DNA of 30,004 nucleotides from a virus: positions 1-30,004 of the IMG/VR virus record IMGVR_UViG_3300042567_000787. One strand, given 5' to 3'. Shown here piece by piece: positions 5,836-24,029 of this stretch (the stretch's first letter is position 1; each line of letters begins with the position of its first letter). The position numbers and the translations under genes are program-made. A model generated the notes under the pieces. That model saw nothing but the letters and a program-made list of their open reading frames with translations, was not told the DNA's origin and searched no databases.

Positions 5836-5890
5836 TAAACAGGGTATCCGAAAACTGAATAGAGTAGGAAAATTTTAAAATTAAAAAATT

Positions 5891-6640
5891 ATGTTTCAAA
5901 CAAAAAATGTACCAATGAATGATATTCAAATACACACAACAAAAGATTATTCTTTATTTAAAACATTAAACGGAAATAGAGATATTAATTATCTTCATTT
6001 ATCTAGATTAAAAGAAAGTATGAAAAAAAACCATTTAACTACAATTATAATGGTTAATAAAAATTTTGAAATTATTGATGGTCAACATAGATTTTTAATA
6101 AGTAAGGAATTAAATTTACCTATAAATTATATAATTTCAAAAGATTATGGACTAGCAGAAGTTCAAATTTTAAATGCTAATATGAAAAATTGGCAAACTA
6201 TTGATTATGTAAATGGATATTGTGATTTAGGATATAAAGATTATATTATTTATAGAGATTTTGTAAATAAATATGGTTTTCAAAATCAAGTTGCTATTTT
6301 ATTATTAACCGGAGAAGAAACAAAAGGGAGTGGAACAGAAAATGTAACAACTAAATTTAAGGATGGTAAATTTAAAATAAAAGATTTAAACAATGCTAAT
6401 AAAATGGCTGAAAAAATATTAATGATTGAGCCATATTATAAAGGATATTTAAGAAGAAGTTTTATTTATGCATTAATTGGAATGTTTAAAAATGAAAACT
6501 TTGAATTTACTGAATTTTTAGCAAAATTAAAGCAACAACCAACAACAATGCAAGATTGTACTAGTAGAACTCAATATAAAGTTTTGATTGAGGAAATATA
6601 TAATTATAGACGTAGAGATAAAGTAAATTTAAGATTTTAA
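5891..6640 (+). CDS. ParB/sulfiredoxin-fold protein (ParB-like nuclease domain)
   Basis: 249 residues. Residues 9-75 carry the ParB N-terminal pattern: a beginning NDIQIH, helix LSRLKESMKK, strand TTIIMVN, and the box I-I-D-G-Q-H-R at 61-67. The rest (VNGYCDLGYKDYIIYRDFVNKYG) is helical and reminiscent of the helical part of phage ParB-like proteins. No ParA partner is visible, so DNA partition is unlikely. Nuclease, NTP-binding or regulatory roles are all known for such proteins. Its bases are strikingly poorer in G+C than its flanks (almost all A/T third positions), which suggests recent acquisition. It is separated by 55 non-coding bases from the preceding gene. Confidence 0.75.
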   Translation: MFQTKNVPMNDIQIHTTKDYSLFKTLNGNRDINYLHLSRLKESMKKNHLTTIIMVNKNFEIIDGQHRFLISKELNLPINYIISKDYGLAEVQILNANMKNWQTIDYVNGYCDLGYKDYIIYRDFVNKYGFQNQVAILLLTGEETKGSGTENVTTKFKDGKFKIKDLNNANKMAEKILMIEPYYKGYLRRSFIYALIGMFKNENFEFTEFLAKLKQQPTTMQDCTSRTQYKVLIEEIYNYRRRDKVNLRF

Positions 6641-7770: not shown

Positions 7771-7795
7771 GGAGGCTTTGTGCCTCCTTTTTTTT
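7771..7795 (+). terminator. Intrinsic terminator after the putative SSB gene
   Basis: Perfect stem GGAGGC (7771-7776) / GCCTCC (7782-7787), 5-base loop TTTGT, followed by eight T. Strong, GC-rich stem in an AT-rich genome. It ends the early transcript before the candidate origin. Confidence 0.9.
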
Positions 7796-7797
7796 GC

Positions 7798-7904
7798 AAT
7801 AGTACACATTTAAACCGTTTTCCTATACTCCCCTAGAAAACAAAATTTATAATTTAATAGGGGGGGGTATAAATTGAAAAAAAATGTGTTGAATGTGTAC
7901 TATT
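7798..7904. repeat. Nested inverted repeat with G8 run, candidate replication origin
   Basis: Outer arms AATAGTACACATT (7798-7810) and AATGTGTACTATT (7892-7904) are perfect reverse complements. Inner arms TATACTCCCCTA (7824-7835) and TAGGGGGGGGTATA (7858-7871) are near-complements around an AT-only centre. The 9-mer AATGTGTAC is tandemly preceded by AATGTGTTG at 7883-7891, giving three iteron-like copies counting the left arm. The position, between the putative SSB and primase-helicase genes, suits an origin. A transcriptional operator is an alternative. It lies in the 310-base gene-free gap 7743-8052. Confidence 0.5.
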
Positions 7905-7924: not shown

Positions 7925-7955
7925 TTAGTATTTTAAAAATTAATTATTATCTTTG
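7925..7955 (+). promoter_or_regulatory. Bacteroidota-type promoter for primase-helicase leader
   Basis: TATCTTTG at 7948-7955 fits the TAnnTTTG -7 element. TTAG at 7925-7928 is a one-base-off -33 box, 19 bases upstream. Expected transcription start is about 7960, which places the whole pseudoknot/terminator leader (7961-8047) at the 5' end of the mRNA. Confidence 0.65.
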
Positions 7956-7960
7956 AAAAT

Positions 7961-8047
7961 CAATTGGAGTGGTAGCCATATTAACTTTTTATTAAGTCCC
8001 TATTACCACGCAACTACCACTGCTGGTATTAGGGACTATTTTTTTTT
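7961..8047 (+). ncRNA. Pseudoknot/terminator leader RNA (candidate attenuator) before primase-helicase
   Basis: AGTCCCTA (7995-8002) pairs with TAGGGACT (8030-8037), then, after a T-T mismatch, TACCA (8004-8008) pairs with TGGTA (8024-8028). Nine T follow at 8039-8047, forming an intrinsic-terminator hairpin. Its 15-base loop contains CTACCACT (8014-8021), perfectly complementary to AGTGGTAG at 7968-7975 near the expected 5' end. The topology is an a-b-a'-b' pseudoknot. GTGGTA (7969-7974) can alternatively pair with TACCAC (8004-8009) in the terminator stem, so a switch between forms is possible. It could control read-through into the gene at 8053 or release a ~87-base RNA. Confidence 0.6.
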
Positions 8048-8052
8048 ACATT

Positions 8053-10383
8053 ATGATAGTATCAGTATTTAAAGACTTGTATAAGTCAACCGACGTCCCC
8101 TTTCACGTTCCAATTGAAAAAATAGTCAATAGGATTAAAAAAGGAACTTCAAAAGAGATTATCGATTTAATTCGAAACGGCCAATTACAATTAAAAAGCT
8201 CTTTGCCTTGTATTATTTTTGGAGGGATTTTTAATGAGCGAAACTCAAACTCACTTCAACAACATTCCGGATTAATGGTTGTGGATTTTGATAAATATCC
8301 AGACGTTGAAACGATGCTCTCACAATTTGAAATTTTAAAACAAAATAAACATTTTTGTTTACTTTTTATTAGTCCCTCAGGAATGGGAATTAAGGGCGTT
8401 TTAAGGGTTTCAAATGAACTAACTAAGGAAACGCATCCAAAAGTATTTAAAGAGTTTCAAAAGCAATTTAATTTTGATTATTTTGATATAAGTAACTCCA
8501 ACGTCGACCGAGTTTGTTATGAGTCATACGATCCAAATATTTATTTTAATAAAGAGGCTGAGATATTTGATCCAATACTAAAAGAGGAGGGATTTAACGT
8601 TTCGGAACGAGTTCCACTTTTACCAGTTACCGACCAGGATAAAATTATCGCTAAGATAATGGAGTGGAATTGGCAAAAAGATTTTAGAGAGGGAGAACGA
8701 AACGCTTTTATTTTTGATTTGGCCGGAGCTTTTTGCGAGTATGGTATCTCTCAAGCCAATGCAGAGGGTTACATTCTTAATAATGTAGTGATAGGAGACT
8801 TCTCTGACACAGAGGCTAAAACCACAATAAAATCGGCTTATAAAAAACGTAACTTCGATATAAAATACTTTGAGAATTATAATAAAATAGACTCAATAAA
8901 AGTAGATTTAAAAAAAGGTAAAAAGGAAGTAATTGAAAAATACGGTATCACGGAGGATACATTCAACGAAATAAAGGAAGCATCCGAACACGAAGACTTT
9001 TGGCAATATGGCGAAAAAAATAAGCTGAGAATTGATAATTTAAAGTACCGATTATTTTTAGAGCGTAATGGATTTAAAAAATATTTTCAATCTGAGGCAC
9101 AAAAGGCAACGTGGATATATATAAGCTCCAATAAAGTAGTGGAAACCTCAGCCGAAAAAATAAAAGATTTTGTCCTTAATTATTTAATGGATCGAGGAGA
9201 GATTGACGTTTGGAATTATTGCGCAAGTTATCAAAATATATTCTCAGAGAATTATTTATCAATGATTGAGAGCGTCGATTTAATGATGCTAAAAGATACC
9301 AAAACCAAATCCTATATTGCGTTTGAGAATGGTATTTTAGAAGTCACAAAAGACACTATTAAATTGGTTGACTATATCGACGTGGACGGATACGTTTGGA
9401 AGTCTCAAATTATTCAAAGAGATTTTAATCAAAGCGAGAATTTAGAAAATGAATATAAAACCTTTATAAATAACATAAGTAATAATGAGCCAATAGCTAT
9501 TGAGTGCGTTGTTGGGTATCTTTTAAGCACTTATAAAAACAAAATGAATAATAAGGCTATAATCTTAAACGATGAGGTTATAAGCGAAAATCCGGAGGGT
9601 GGAACTGGAAAGGGTTTATTTGTACAAGGTTTAAAACAAATTAGAAAAATATCAATATTAGACGGAAAGTCTTTTGACGATAAAAAATCGTTTCCGTATC
9701 AAACCGTATCACCAGAGACTCAAGTTTTAGTATTTGACGACGTTAAAAAGAATTTTGACTTTGAGAGTAAATTTAGTTTGGTAACTGAGGGAATGACTCT
9801 CGAGCGTAAAAACAAAGACGCTATTAAATTGAAAGTTGAGGAGAGTCCGAAAATGGTTATCTCTACAAATTACGCAATCAAAGGAGAGGGAAATTCTCAC
9901 GATCGTCGTAGATTTGAGATTGAGTTCGCTCAATTTTACGGAAAGGCTTTGACGCCTTACGACGAATTTAATCGCCAATTATTTGACGACTGGGACGAGG
10001 AGGATTATAAACGCTTTGATAATTATATGGTTTATTGTTTACAATCTTATTTAAAATTAGGCTTAGTGCCTCAAAACGCCAAAAATATTAAAATGCGTAA
10101 ATTTATTGCTGAGACTTCTATGGAGTTTTTGGAGTGGGTTAAGGATATTGAAAACGTACCTCACAATCAAAGACTCGAAAAATCTTTTTACTTCAATAAT
10201 TTTACAACCGAGTACCAGGATTATAAAAAATGGTTGACAAATAAAAAGTTTAATATTTGGGTACAAAAATATTGCAATTTTATAGGGGCAAAATATAACG
10301 ACGGAAATACTAACGGGATGCGTTGGTTTATAATTATTACAAATGAAAATAAAATTGTCGAGGACGACGATATTGCTTTTTAA
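8053..10383 (+). CDS. Primase-helicase (BT4734-like N-terminal domain plus D5/SF3-type helicase)
   Basis: 776 residues. Residues ~1-190 resemble the BT4734/VirE-N primase-like domain (SGLMVVDFDKYP near 73-84, then LLFISPSGMGIKGVLRV near 110). A helical PriCT-like segment follows (~195-275). The C-terminal half is a helicase with Walker A EGGTGKG (515-521), Walker B VLVFDDV (558-564), and a sensor-like VISTNYAI near 600. It should unwind and prime phage DNA at the nearby candidate origin, presumably with the host polymerase, because no DNA polymerase gene is present. ATG 8053 lies right after the terminator-like leader. The stop is two bases from the next ATG. Confidence 0.82.
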   Translation: MIVSVFKDLYKSTDVPFHVPIEKIVNRIKKGTSKEIIDLIRNGQLQLKSSLPCIIFGGIFNERNSNSLQQHSGLMVVDFDKYPDVETMLSQFEILKQNKHFCLLFISPSGMGIKGVLRVSNELTKETHPKVFKEFQKQFNFDYFDISNSNVDRVCYESYDPNIYFNKEAEIFDPILKEEGFNVSERVPLLPVTDQDKIIAKIMEWNWQKDFREGERNAFIFDLAGAFCEYGISQANAEGYILNNVVIGDFSDTEAKTTIKSAYKKRNFDIKYFENYNKIDSIKVDLKKGKKEVIEKYGITEDTFNEIKEASEHEDFWQYGEKNKLRIDNLKYRLFLERNGFKKYFQSEAQKATWIYISSNKVVETSAEKIKDFVLNYLMDRGEIDVWNYCASYQNIFSENYLSMIESVDLMMLKDTKTKSYIAFENGILEVTKDTIKLVDYIDVDGYVWKSQIIQRDFNQSENLENEYKTFINNISNNEPIAIECVVGYLLSTYKNKMNNKAIILNDEVISENPEGGTGKGLFVQGLKQIRKISILDGKSFDDKKSFPYQTVSPETQVLVFDDVKKNFDFESKFSLVTEGMTLERKNKDAIKLKVEESPKMVISTNYAIKGEGNSHDRRRFEIEFAQFYGKALTPYDEFNRQLFDDWDEEDYKRFDNYMVYCLQSYLKLGLVPQNAKNIKMRKFIAETSMEFLEWVKDIENVPHNQRLEKSFYFNNFTTEYQDYKKWLTNKKFNIWVQKYCNFIGAKYNDGNTNGMRWFIIITNENKIVEDDDIAF

Positions 10384-12442: not shown

Positions 12443-12462
12443 AAATAAGTTTTATATATTTG
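12430..12462 (+). promoter_or_regulatory. Full Bacteroidota promoter (TTTG-N21-TATATTTG)
   Basis: TTTG at 12430-12433 and TATATTTG at 12455-12462 are separated by 21 bases, matching the -33/-7 consensus. The -33 box lies in the last codons of the helicase gene. The expected start, about 12466, places the second pseudoknot leader at the RNA 5' end. Confidence 0.75.
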
Positions 12463-12467
12463 TACAA

Positions 12468-12542
12468 CCGCCAAAGTAAAGTATTTAATAATTCCCTTTT
12501 CTTTTGCGCTTGGCGGTAGCAATCGAGGAGGGTTTATTTTTT
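12468..12542 (+). ncRNA. Second pseudoknot/terminator-like leader RNA
   Basis: CCGCCAA (12468-12474) pairs with TTGGCGG (12510-12516), 7 bp. Between and after them, AATAA-TT-CCCTTTTC (12487-12501) pairs with GAGGAGGG-T-TTATT (12525-12538), 5 plus 8 bp with two G-U pairs. A T run at 12537-12542 directly precedes the ATG region at 12548. The order a-b-a'-b', with a' inside the loop of b and a T run after b', is the same as at 7961-8047 although the sequences differ. This suggests a shared class of leader. The function (attenuation, translation control or release of a small RNA) is unknown. Confidence 0.55.
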
Positions 12543-12547
12543 ATATT

Positions 12548-12742
12548 ATGAATGAGATTAAAATTATTGATATTAAAATTGACGATTTGAATATTGACTT
12601 ATCCGACAAAGTATATTATTATGCCAAAATTGAAAAAAATAAAAAGCATTTTATTTGTCAAATGGTTACGGACGGAATTATTAATCCACATTTAAATATT
12701 AAAGAGTGGTCAGATTATGTAAAAAATTACAATCATGAGTAA
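12548..12742 (+). CDS. Small hypothetical protein behind pseudoknot leader
   Basis: 64 residues starting MNEIKIIDIKIDDLNIDLSD. Alternating hydrophobic pattern (beta) then a helical end with WSDYVKNYNHE. It is the first gene of the operon of small genes controlled by the 12455 promoter and its leader, so its expression is likely set by that RNA. Overlaps the next gene by 8 bases. No family recognised. Confidence 0.6.
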   Translation: MNEIKIIDIKIDDLNIDLSDKVYYYAKIEKNKKHFICQMVTDGIINPHLNIKEWSDYVKNYNHE

Positions 12743-22029: not shown

Positions 22030-24029
22030 TTGATATAAAAGTACAAGGCAATGTCCAAGAAGCCGTTGGAAGTTTACGCTCACAATTAAAAGAGGCTCAA
22101 GCTGAGGTTGCGATTTTATCTGAAAAATTTGGAGTTACTTCCGATGAGGCTGCTAATGCTGCAATGAAAGCCGCTGAATTACGAGACCGTATCGGAGACG
22201 CAAGCGCTTTGACTGATGCGTTTAATCCTGACGCTAAATTTAAAGCTGTGACTTCCTCTTTGGCTGGAGTTGCATCCGGTTTTGGAGCTATTCAATCCTC
22301 AATGGCATTATTTGGAGAAGAGTCTGAGAATGTAGAGAAAACGCTTTTAAAAGTTCAAAGCGCAATGCAATTAACTCAATTCTTACAACAATCCGGTGAG
22401 AGCATTGACTCCTTTCAACAATTGGGTGCGGTTATTCAATCAACAACAGTTTATCAAAAATTAAATACTCTCGCAACGGCTGCTGCTGCGGCCGTTCAAA
22501 AATTATTCACCGGTGCGGTAAATACTACGGCCACTTCGTTCAATGCTTTAAAAACCGCAATTGTATCGACAGGGATTGGAGCTTTGGTTGTAGGTATTGG
22601 ATATTTAATATCTAAAATGAATGAGAGCGCTGACGCGACGGAAAAATTAACCTTAGAACAAGAGCAACTTAATAAGCAACTTGAAATCACTAAAAAATTA
22701 ACAGACGATAATGCAAAGGCTATTGATTATGACACTCAGATAAAGTTAGCAAATGCTAAAAAACTTGGTGCATCGGATAAGGAGTTATTAAGAATACAAT
22801 TAGACGGTTACGAGGCAAAAGGGAAAGCTAACGCAAAAGAGATTGAGGACATTCAAAGAACTCAAAGCAAAGCGGTAAATTTAACAAAAGAGCAAAATAA
22901 AAGAATACAGGAATTACGAGAGCAAAATCTTGATTTGCAAAGGAAAGGAAATGTCGATATTGCTAATTTGGACGCTGACTTAGCTGAAAAAGGTAGGCAA
23001 AATCAGAAAAAAAGTGAAGACGAAAAAGCAGCACAAAAAAAGACAGATGAGGAAAATCTTGCAGCTCAAAGAAAAAAAGACGCTGAGGCTTTAAATGCAG
23101 CATTACAAGCGCAAAAAGATGCTGAATTATTACAAAGACAGGAAATATTAAAAGCAATCGGAGACGCTCAAGACAAACAAGCTGAGGCTAATATGACAGC
23201 AAGCGAGGTTGAGCAAAGAGTTGTTAAAGATAAATATTTTGGTTTAATTCAATTAGCAAAACAACAAAAACGATCTGAAGACGAAATCAATGTTTTAGAA
23301 GTTCAAAGATTAAAAGAACTCCAAGATATAAAGGATAAATATAGACTTGAAGACGACGAAAAAGCTGCGGCCAAATTAGAGAAAACTATAAGCGACGAAA
23401 GTCTTAGTTTTGAAAATAGACTTGCGGCGGTAGATGCAGAGCAAGCTATATTCCAAAAACAACTTGACGATAAACTTATTACTGAGGAGCAATTTAATGA
23501 TAAGGTAAAAACCTTATCGACTGCGAGACTTAATATTGACAAAGCTGAGGCAGCTGCAAAGCAAGCGTTATTTGCTAAGACTTCGGAAACCTTAAGCAAA
23601 GGCGCTGACTTATTGGGTAAAAATACGGCAGCCGGAAAGGCAATGGCAGCGGCAGCGGCTTTAATAAATACCTATCAGGGTATTACGGCGGAACTTGCAA
23701 CCAAGACCGTCACTCCTTTTGAAATTGGATTGAAAATTGCCAACGTTGCAATTATCGCAGCGACAGGATTTAAAGCGGTGCAAGACATCGTCTCAGTTCA
23801 AATTCCTGGCGGAGGTGGTGGCGGTGGAGGTAGCGCTCCGAGTGGTAGCGCTCCGAGTATGACAGCGCCAAGTTTTAACACAGTTGGCTCAAGTGCCACA
23901 AATCAAATTGCTCAAACTTTGGGAAGACAAAGTCAAGAGCCAATACGAAGTTATGTCGTAGCTTCGGACGTTAGTACGGCTCAGGCTCTCGATAGGTCAA
24001 TTATTACAAATGCGTCAATCGGAGGATAA
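22011..24029 (+). CDS. Tail tape measure protein
   Basis: 672 residues. The N-terminus (MAIEKIIDIKVQGNVQEAVG) is the start typical of such proteins. Long coiled-coil stretches occupy ~15-70 and ~210-540, with abundant Ala, Gln, Glu and Lys. A hydrophobic helix lies at ~182-203 and an Ala-rich, membrane-like segment at ~540-585. The C-terminal part has eight glycines (600-607), then a tandem GSAPS repeat. Tape measure length sets tail length, implying a tail of roughly 100 nm by the usual ~1.5 angstrom per residue rule. It follows the chaperone by several genes rather than directly. Confidence 0.85.
   Translation: MAIEKIIDIKVQGNVQEAVGSLRSQLKEAQAEVAILSEKFGVTSDEAANAAMKAAELRDRIGDASALTDAFNPDAKFKAVTSSLAGVASGFGAIQSSMALFGEESENVEKTLLKVQSAMQLTQFLQQSGESIDSFQQLGAVIQSTTVYQKLNTLATAAAAAVQKLFTGAVNTTATSFNALKTAIVSTGIGALVVGIGYLISKMNESADATEKLTLEQEQLNKQLEITKKLTDDNAKAIDYDTQIKLANAKKLGASDKELLRIQLDGYEAKGKANAKEIEDIQRTQSKAVNLTKEQNKRIQELREQNLDLQRKGNVDIANLDADLAEKGRQNQKKSEDEKAAQKKTDEENLAAQRKKDAEALNAALQAQKDAELLQRQEILKAIGDAQDKQAEANMTASEVEQRVVKDKYFGLIQLAKQQKRSEDEINVLEVQRLKELQDIKDKYRLEDDEKAAAKLEKTISDESLSFENRLAAVDAEQAIFQKQLDDKLITEEQFNDKVKTLSTARLNIDKAEAAAKQALFAKTSETLSKGADLLGKNTAAGKAMAAAAALINTYQGITAELATKTVTPFEIGLKIANVAIIAATGFKAVQDIVSVQIPGGGGGGGGSAPSGSAPSMTAPSFNTVGSSATNQIAQTLGRQSQEPIRSYVVASDVSTAQALDRSIITNASIGG
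23829..23858. repeat. 15-bp tandem repeat in tape measure gene
   Basis: GGTAGCGCTCCGAGT occurs twice in tandem (23829-23843, 23844-23858), directly after eight glycine codons. It encodes GSAPS twice, a flexible linker that can expand or contract by slippage. Confidence 0.9.

Follow-up and report, generated by a model that had tools for sequence, protein, structure and literature searches.

Leaders whose terminator loop is complementary to the RNA 5′ end recur before replication genes of Bacteroidota phages and probably act as conditional terminators

The window analysed here, the whole 30,004-base stretch of a virus record, carries terminase, tail, lysozyme and replication genes, and no integrase was found among its ORFs tested. 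Directly upstream of the gene for a primase-helicase lies a leader (7948-8047) made up of the following parts.

7948-7955, + strand: predicted Bacteroidota-type −7 promoter element TATCTTTG (TAnnTTTG), from the sequence and the published consensus
7966-7977, + strand: conserved core GGAGTGGTAGCC around element a, as seen in class A leaders
7968-7975, + strand: 5′ element a, AGTGGTAG, exact complement of the terminator loop
7976-7994, + strand: A/T-rich spacer, loosely conserved
7995-8011, + strand: 5′ half of the terminator stem, including bulged C8009 and the inner GC, from the fold
8012-8013, + strand: two-nucleotide linker AA ahead of the loop element, the commonest geometry among the families
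8014-8021, + strand: loop element a′, CTACCACT, complement of 7968-7975 (duplex −10.7 kcal/mol)
8022-8037, + strand: 3′ half of the terminator stem, from the fold
8039-8047, + strand: T tract of nine T
8053-10383, + strand: VirE/BT4734-like primase-helicase of 776 aa, ATG at 8053 (Pfam PF08800 and PF08708; phrog_28855 and phrog_18375)

The initial annotation had placed a promoter at 7948, and an element of the TAnnTTTG type, a consensus documented for Bacteroidota (PMC7366714), is indeed found there. The perfect complementarity that it had described between the 5′ end of the transcript (7968-7975) and the loop (8014-8021) is likewise present. Within this region GGAGTGGTAGCCA is invariant across the 16 leaders of class A, the type to which the window's leader belongs. 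The octamer AGTGGTAG occurs four times in the window when both strands are counted, against 0.27 expected; two of these occurrences are the element itself, and two extra copies lie in coding regions (1405-1412 and 23841-23848).

Several other features lie upstream of the leader. A separate plain terminator at 7771-7795 (GGAGGCTTTGTGCCTCC followed by T8) closes the upstream operon, and a long inverted repeat at 7798-7904 (AATAGTACACATT ... AATGTGTACTATT) surrounds a G/C-run region just 5′ of the promoter. Relatives have similar inverted repeats, in other letters, and the repeat is a possible operator or origin. In a search against Rfam 15 the only match in the window was a DUF805b RNA (5838-5870, 38.2 bits) 5′ of a ParB-like ORF (5891-6640), and a literature search on DUF805 turned up nothing. 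The leader itself scored at best 19.9 bits, against a threshold of 55.

The leader has both sequence marks of an intrinsic terminator, a stable hairpin and a U tract. The outer stem (7995-8008 with 8024-8037) has 13 pairs and one T·T mismatch (8003/8029), inner pairs join 8010-8011 to 8022-8023, and nine T follow. The stem alone is calculated at −23.5 kcal/mol, and the fold of the 87-nt RNA has a z score of −4.1. A second conformation had also been proposed, in which GTGGTA (7969-7974) pairs with TACCAC (8004-8009); this alternative is present in the window and in class A, but it is absent outside that class and is thus not general. In stepwise folding of the window leader it is the best pairing until the loop complement emerges, a:a′ is best just before the 3′ half of the stem emerges, and the terminator then forms at −25.8 kcal/mol.

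The same design is found a second time in the window, with a different pair of complementary elements.

12455-12462, + strand: predicted promoter element TATATTTG, from the sequence
12467-12474, + strand: 5′ element ACCGCCAA, complement of its own loop
12494-12532, + strand: terminator hairpin with loop element TTGGCGGT at 12510-12517 (−17.6 kcal/mol when the loop element is kept unpaired)
12533-12542, + strand: T-rich tail, from the sequence
12548-12742, + strand: 64-aa ORF right after the second copy, of no known family (ORF list and family searches)

Several elements per genome also occur among the relatives: 38 loci have two or more, and in none of the 44 element pairs that they give do the two share an a sequence. 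Having distinct elements in one genome probably prevents leaders that are expressed together from docking with one another.

When the window leader was shuffled 20,000 times with its dinucleotides preserved, 0.5% of the copies showed an 8-nt stretch complementary to the loop (P ~0.005). We therefore looked to related phages, using a descriptor that asks for a promoter, an element a at most 35 nt further on and a hairpin with a T tail whose loop holds the complement a′. Across 80 viral loci with related primases (802 kb) it gave 68 matches, of which 64 have the orientation of the gene and 4 the opposite one. At the same score, three dinucleotide-shuffled copies gave 0-2 matches each, never more than 1 per strand. 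At that score, 400 kb of host chromosome from three Flavobacteriaceae genomes gave 0 matches. A looser geometry scan without the promoter was too permissive and was dropped. An element lies within 60 nt of the primase gene in 38 of the 75 loci with enough upstream sequence, and 16 different a sequences are represented. No element was detected directly upstream in the other 37, which indicates that the primase gene can do without it.

A further sample of hairpins came from class C. Scanning IMG/VR for patterns in which a/a′ were fixed had yielded many chance pairs. We therefore used a pattern in which only the hairpin flanks were fixed (AATGAARC...GTGGATTTA) and the loop was free, and hairpins were kept on their stem, T run and upstream TTTG, blind to complementarity. 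All 28 class C hairpins have an exact complement of at least 7 nt to their loop at the RNA 5′ end of their own leader, whereas the leaders of other members match at this length in only 12 of 366 comparisons (20 distinct loops). Of 29 class C hairpins, 28 have TAnnTTTG 38-56 nt upstream; among background windows the share is 9%. Judged by these comparisons, the lock-and-key leader is a real class across related phages, and its certainty comes via the relatives.

Homologous leaders also permit a test that had been set beforehand, the presence of compensatory changes in both helices. Such changes are seen in both helices of class C and in the stem of class A. In a 14-sequence alignment of class C the a:a′ helix is 100% paired and six of its eight pairs have changed on both sides; the outer stem of the terminator and an inner 3-bp stem also covary, and the structure as a whole is 98% paired, compared with 30-48% when the partners are slid. 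In class A the stem is 99.6% paired with five pairs changed on both sides, and the a:a′ pairs are nearly invariant, so that for docking in the window's own class the evidence is conservation together with what the other classes show. Pair counts were taken from alignments A1 and A3 only; in MAFFT alignment A2 the 5′ element was out of place, and that alignment was left out. The proposed pseudoknotted terminator with nine T thus has its parts in the window, and both of its predicted helices are kept in relatives.

The initial annotation had treated the leader as a single element, a view replaced here by a phage-wide class of about 58 a/a′ families, found before several genes, with a second copy in the window and with swapped cassettes. 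A minority of the families, such as those with long repeats of the AATAGTACACAT type, probably represent another kind of inverted repeat that lies upstream. The parts come in one fixed order: the promoter is followed by the 5′ element and a spacer, then by the terminator, which carries the complement in its loop, and lastly by the T tract and the ATG. In the commonest loop (22 of about 58 families) the inner stem is followed by 2 nt, a′, 0 nt and the inner stem again. The hairpin ends a median of 17 nt before the ATG (49 families), and the distance to the following ORF is nearly always 7-32 nt (62 nt in one case), a gap that leaves no room for a second promoter. The predicted promoter and the terminator both lie 5′ of the gene, as the earlier proposal of an attenuator ahead of a replication gene would have it. 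The genes that follow encode primase, DnaD-like and other replication proteins, ParB/methyltransferase, an HNH protein and small ORFs.

The design also has variants. In a subclass of class C the 5′ element a is itself in a hairpin loop (read by eye), an arrangement predicted to make a true kissing complex. The roles are exchanged in L440, L378, lillamy and tooticki, where the loop resembles the class C 5′ element and the 5′ element its loop. At four further loci (L041:10357, L242 on the − strand, L220 and L245) the 5′ module GGAGTGGTAGCC stands with unrelated hairpins that still have CTACCAC in the loop. In L026-L030, in the 100 nt 5′ of the primase, a hairpin with a short GGCGG/CCGCC complement and no T tract sits right before the ATG and is perhaps a translational form.

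Leaders also appear to move as units. The primases of the window and of locus L002 are 98% identical and each is the other's closest neighbour in the tree, but the leaders in front of them differ in type (A in the window, B in L002). By global alignment the two leaders are 54% identical, which is close to unrelated, and they are flanked by an upstream region of 80% identity and a gene start of 95% identity. On this evidence phages that are otherwise nearly identical exchange entire leaders. The class A label requires at least four changes on supported branches of the tree, a count that is approximate because one locus with a class C leader (L014) was scored 'none' by the script.

Named phages and host genomes add to this distribution. 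The cultured Flavobacterium phages lillamy9-7 and tooticki9-1 have an element upstream of their replication operon, Flavobacterium phage elemoF has one before a small ORF, a replication protein and primase, and Polaribacter phage Leef_1 has a weaker candidate. In BLASTN against named phages the class A leader had no match and the class C leader chance matches only. Among 149 Flavobacteriaceae genomes the class C covariance model matched a single one, and the match is on a short contig (a locus of 1,911 bases). This locus (L458:300-420) has a class C-like element 5′ of a predicted replication protein, with an apparent second complementary pair upstream of it. A similar element (ACGCGAC, 18-bp stem) is present at L325:2400 on a contig binned as Ignavibacteria; the other loci have Flavobacteriia hosts. 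The ACCGCCAA pattern gave scattered, chance-like matches in 7 of 299 Flavobacteriaceae genomes and was rejected.

Comparison among the leaders thus establishes both predicted helices, their joint geometry, a phage-specific distribution and a placement between promoter and ATG. We further infer that the hairpin does terminate transcription, that polymerase gets to the gene by reading through it, that docking tips the balance towards termination and that some signal from outside lifts the block. The reading that we favour, with a probability of roughly 0.6, is that the leader is a cis-acting, phage-specific conditional terminator (attenuator) of Bacteroidota phages. Host RNA polymerase would start just 5′ of element a, which would pair with a′ (about 8 bp) once the loop element emerges. 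The terminator stem would then close round a′, giving a pseudoknot plus intrinsic terminator, or a kissing complex where a is in its own hairpin, and most transcripts would end ahead of the gene as an RNA of ~85 nt. A hypothetical factor or condition that blocks a:a′ docking or hairpin closure would allow read-through into the primase gene.

The main rival, to which we give a limited but real chance, is that a:a′ acts as an antiterminator, forming first and slowing closure of the terminator, with the gene on by default until a is taken away. The stepwise folding, which also suits the favoured reading, is consistent with such a role: a:a′ is most stable just before the 3′ half of the stem leaves the polymerase, so that the only contest would be kinetic, and class A leaders offer a further pairing of the 5′ element, with the 5′ half of the stem. 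Moreover, the window stem is so strong by itself that docking may be dispensable for termination and could instead delay it. The loop geometry speaks against this rival. In RNA, a 5′ linker of only a few nucleotides is able to cross the deep groove of a loop helix of this kind, so docking and hairpin should coexist, and the 2+8+0 loop fits docking with the stem closed. Unlike mutually exclusive antiterminators, in which one helix must give way, a′ here never has to invade the stem. Because the loop geometry allows both helices, our preferred view is that docking belongs to the terminating state.

A stable small RNA of ~85 nt, its 5′ end locked into the 3′ hairpin, might alternatively act elsewhere, its position before a gene being secondary. 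The predicted promoter and terminator, the closed ends and the several copies per genome would suit such an RNA, but the location, nearly always a short way before an ORF, the lack of a conserved single-stranded target-pairing region across classes and the complete difference in sequence between homologous loci make this doubtful.

An equally doubtful explanation is that terminated leaders act in trans on nascent leaders of their own type, in RNA-based immunity or copy-number sensing. The CI RNA of phage P4, which acts on its primase operon, and the c4 RNA of P1 and P7 are the models: there, short complementary leader segments in a phage replication or antirepressor operon go with premature termination and with type-specific sequences. 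The window shares with these systems the short complementary leader segments, type-specific sequences and, probably, premature termination, and with P4 the primase gene; the exchange of leaders of different type between phages with 98% identical primases, and the elements within a genome that always differ, also agree with trans action. Here, in contrast, a single complementary pair is folded within one RNA that includes the terminator, and the host group and sequences are unrelated. Intramolecular docking should outcompete pairing in trans, and since the tested ORFs of the window include no integrase, lysogenic immunity is unlikely here. It would be a long shot that orthogonal RNA locks define phage identity, the terminated RNA recognizing only leaders of its own type and stopping replication of a sibling or superinfecting phage; if true, a phage that swaps its cassette would switch to another immunity type, much as in P4 or P1/P7, with the system spread across many Bacteroidota phages and genes.

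A DNA-level replication origin hairpin, suggested by the adjoining replication gene and the upstream inverted repeats, is very improbable given the fixed places of promoter and T tract and the same design before many other genes. An ordinary terminator with a chance complement, for which the P of only about 0.005 within the window alone would leave room, is refuted for the class by covariation and the 28/28 recurrence.

Set beside other known RNAs, the conditional terminator proposed here resembles riboswitches of the preQ1-I pseudoknot type and intrinsic-terminator attenuators in having a 5′ leader, a pseudoknot and a terminator that together decide read-through into the gene. It differs in that the RNA 5′ end docks into the terminator's own loop, in having no aptamer common to the classes and in having no Rfam match; in Rfam 15 none was found for 12 class C loci either, nor for L360, which scored 14.1 against a gathering threshold of 44. 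With no sequence common to the classes and varied phage genes downstream, the leaders do not fit a metabolite riboswitch; nor does the window leader, which lacks tandem repeats and precedes a primase, fit a type III toxin-antitoxin RNA. Kissing-loop RNAs such as ColE1 RNA I/II and the HIV DIS have a nearly fully paired loop and a short 5′ linker, as here, except that the present interaction is intramolecular and one partner is a terminator hairpin. Searches of the open-access literature found no description of such an element, which is apparently a built-in gene switch of an undescribed kind.

The leaders would constitute a widespread, so far unannotated class of RNA switch in Bacteroidota phages, one that Rfam and other searches built on sequence families can readily overlook because it is defined by architecture and not by sequence. 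They would offer naturally orthogonal, programmable pairs of terminator and 5′ end for a phylum with few regulatory tools. Cultured carriers exist (lillamy9-7, tooticki9-1 and elemoF), and the timing of replication genes in these phages would also become testable.
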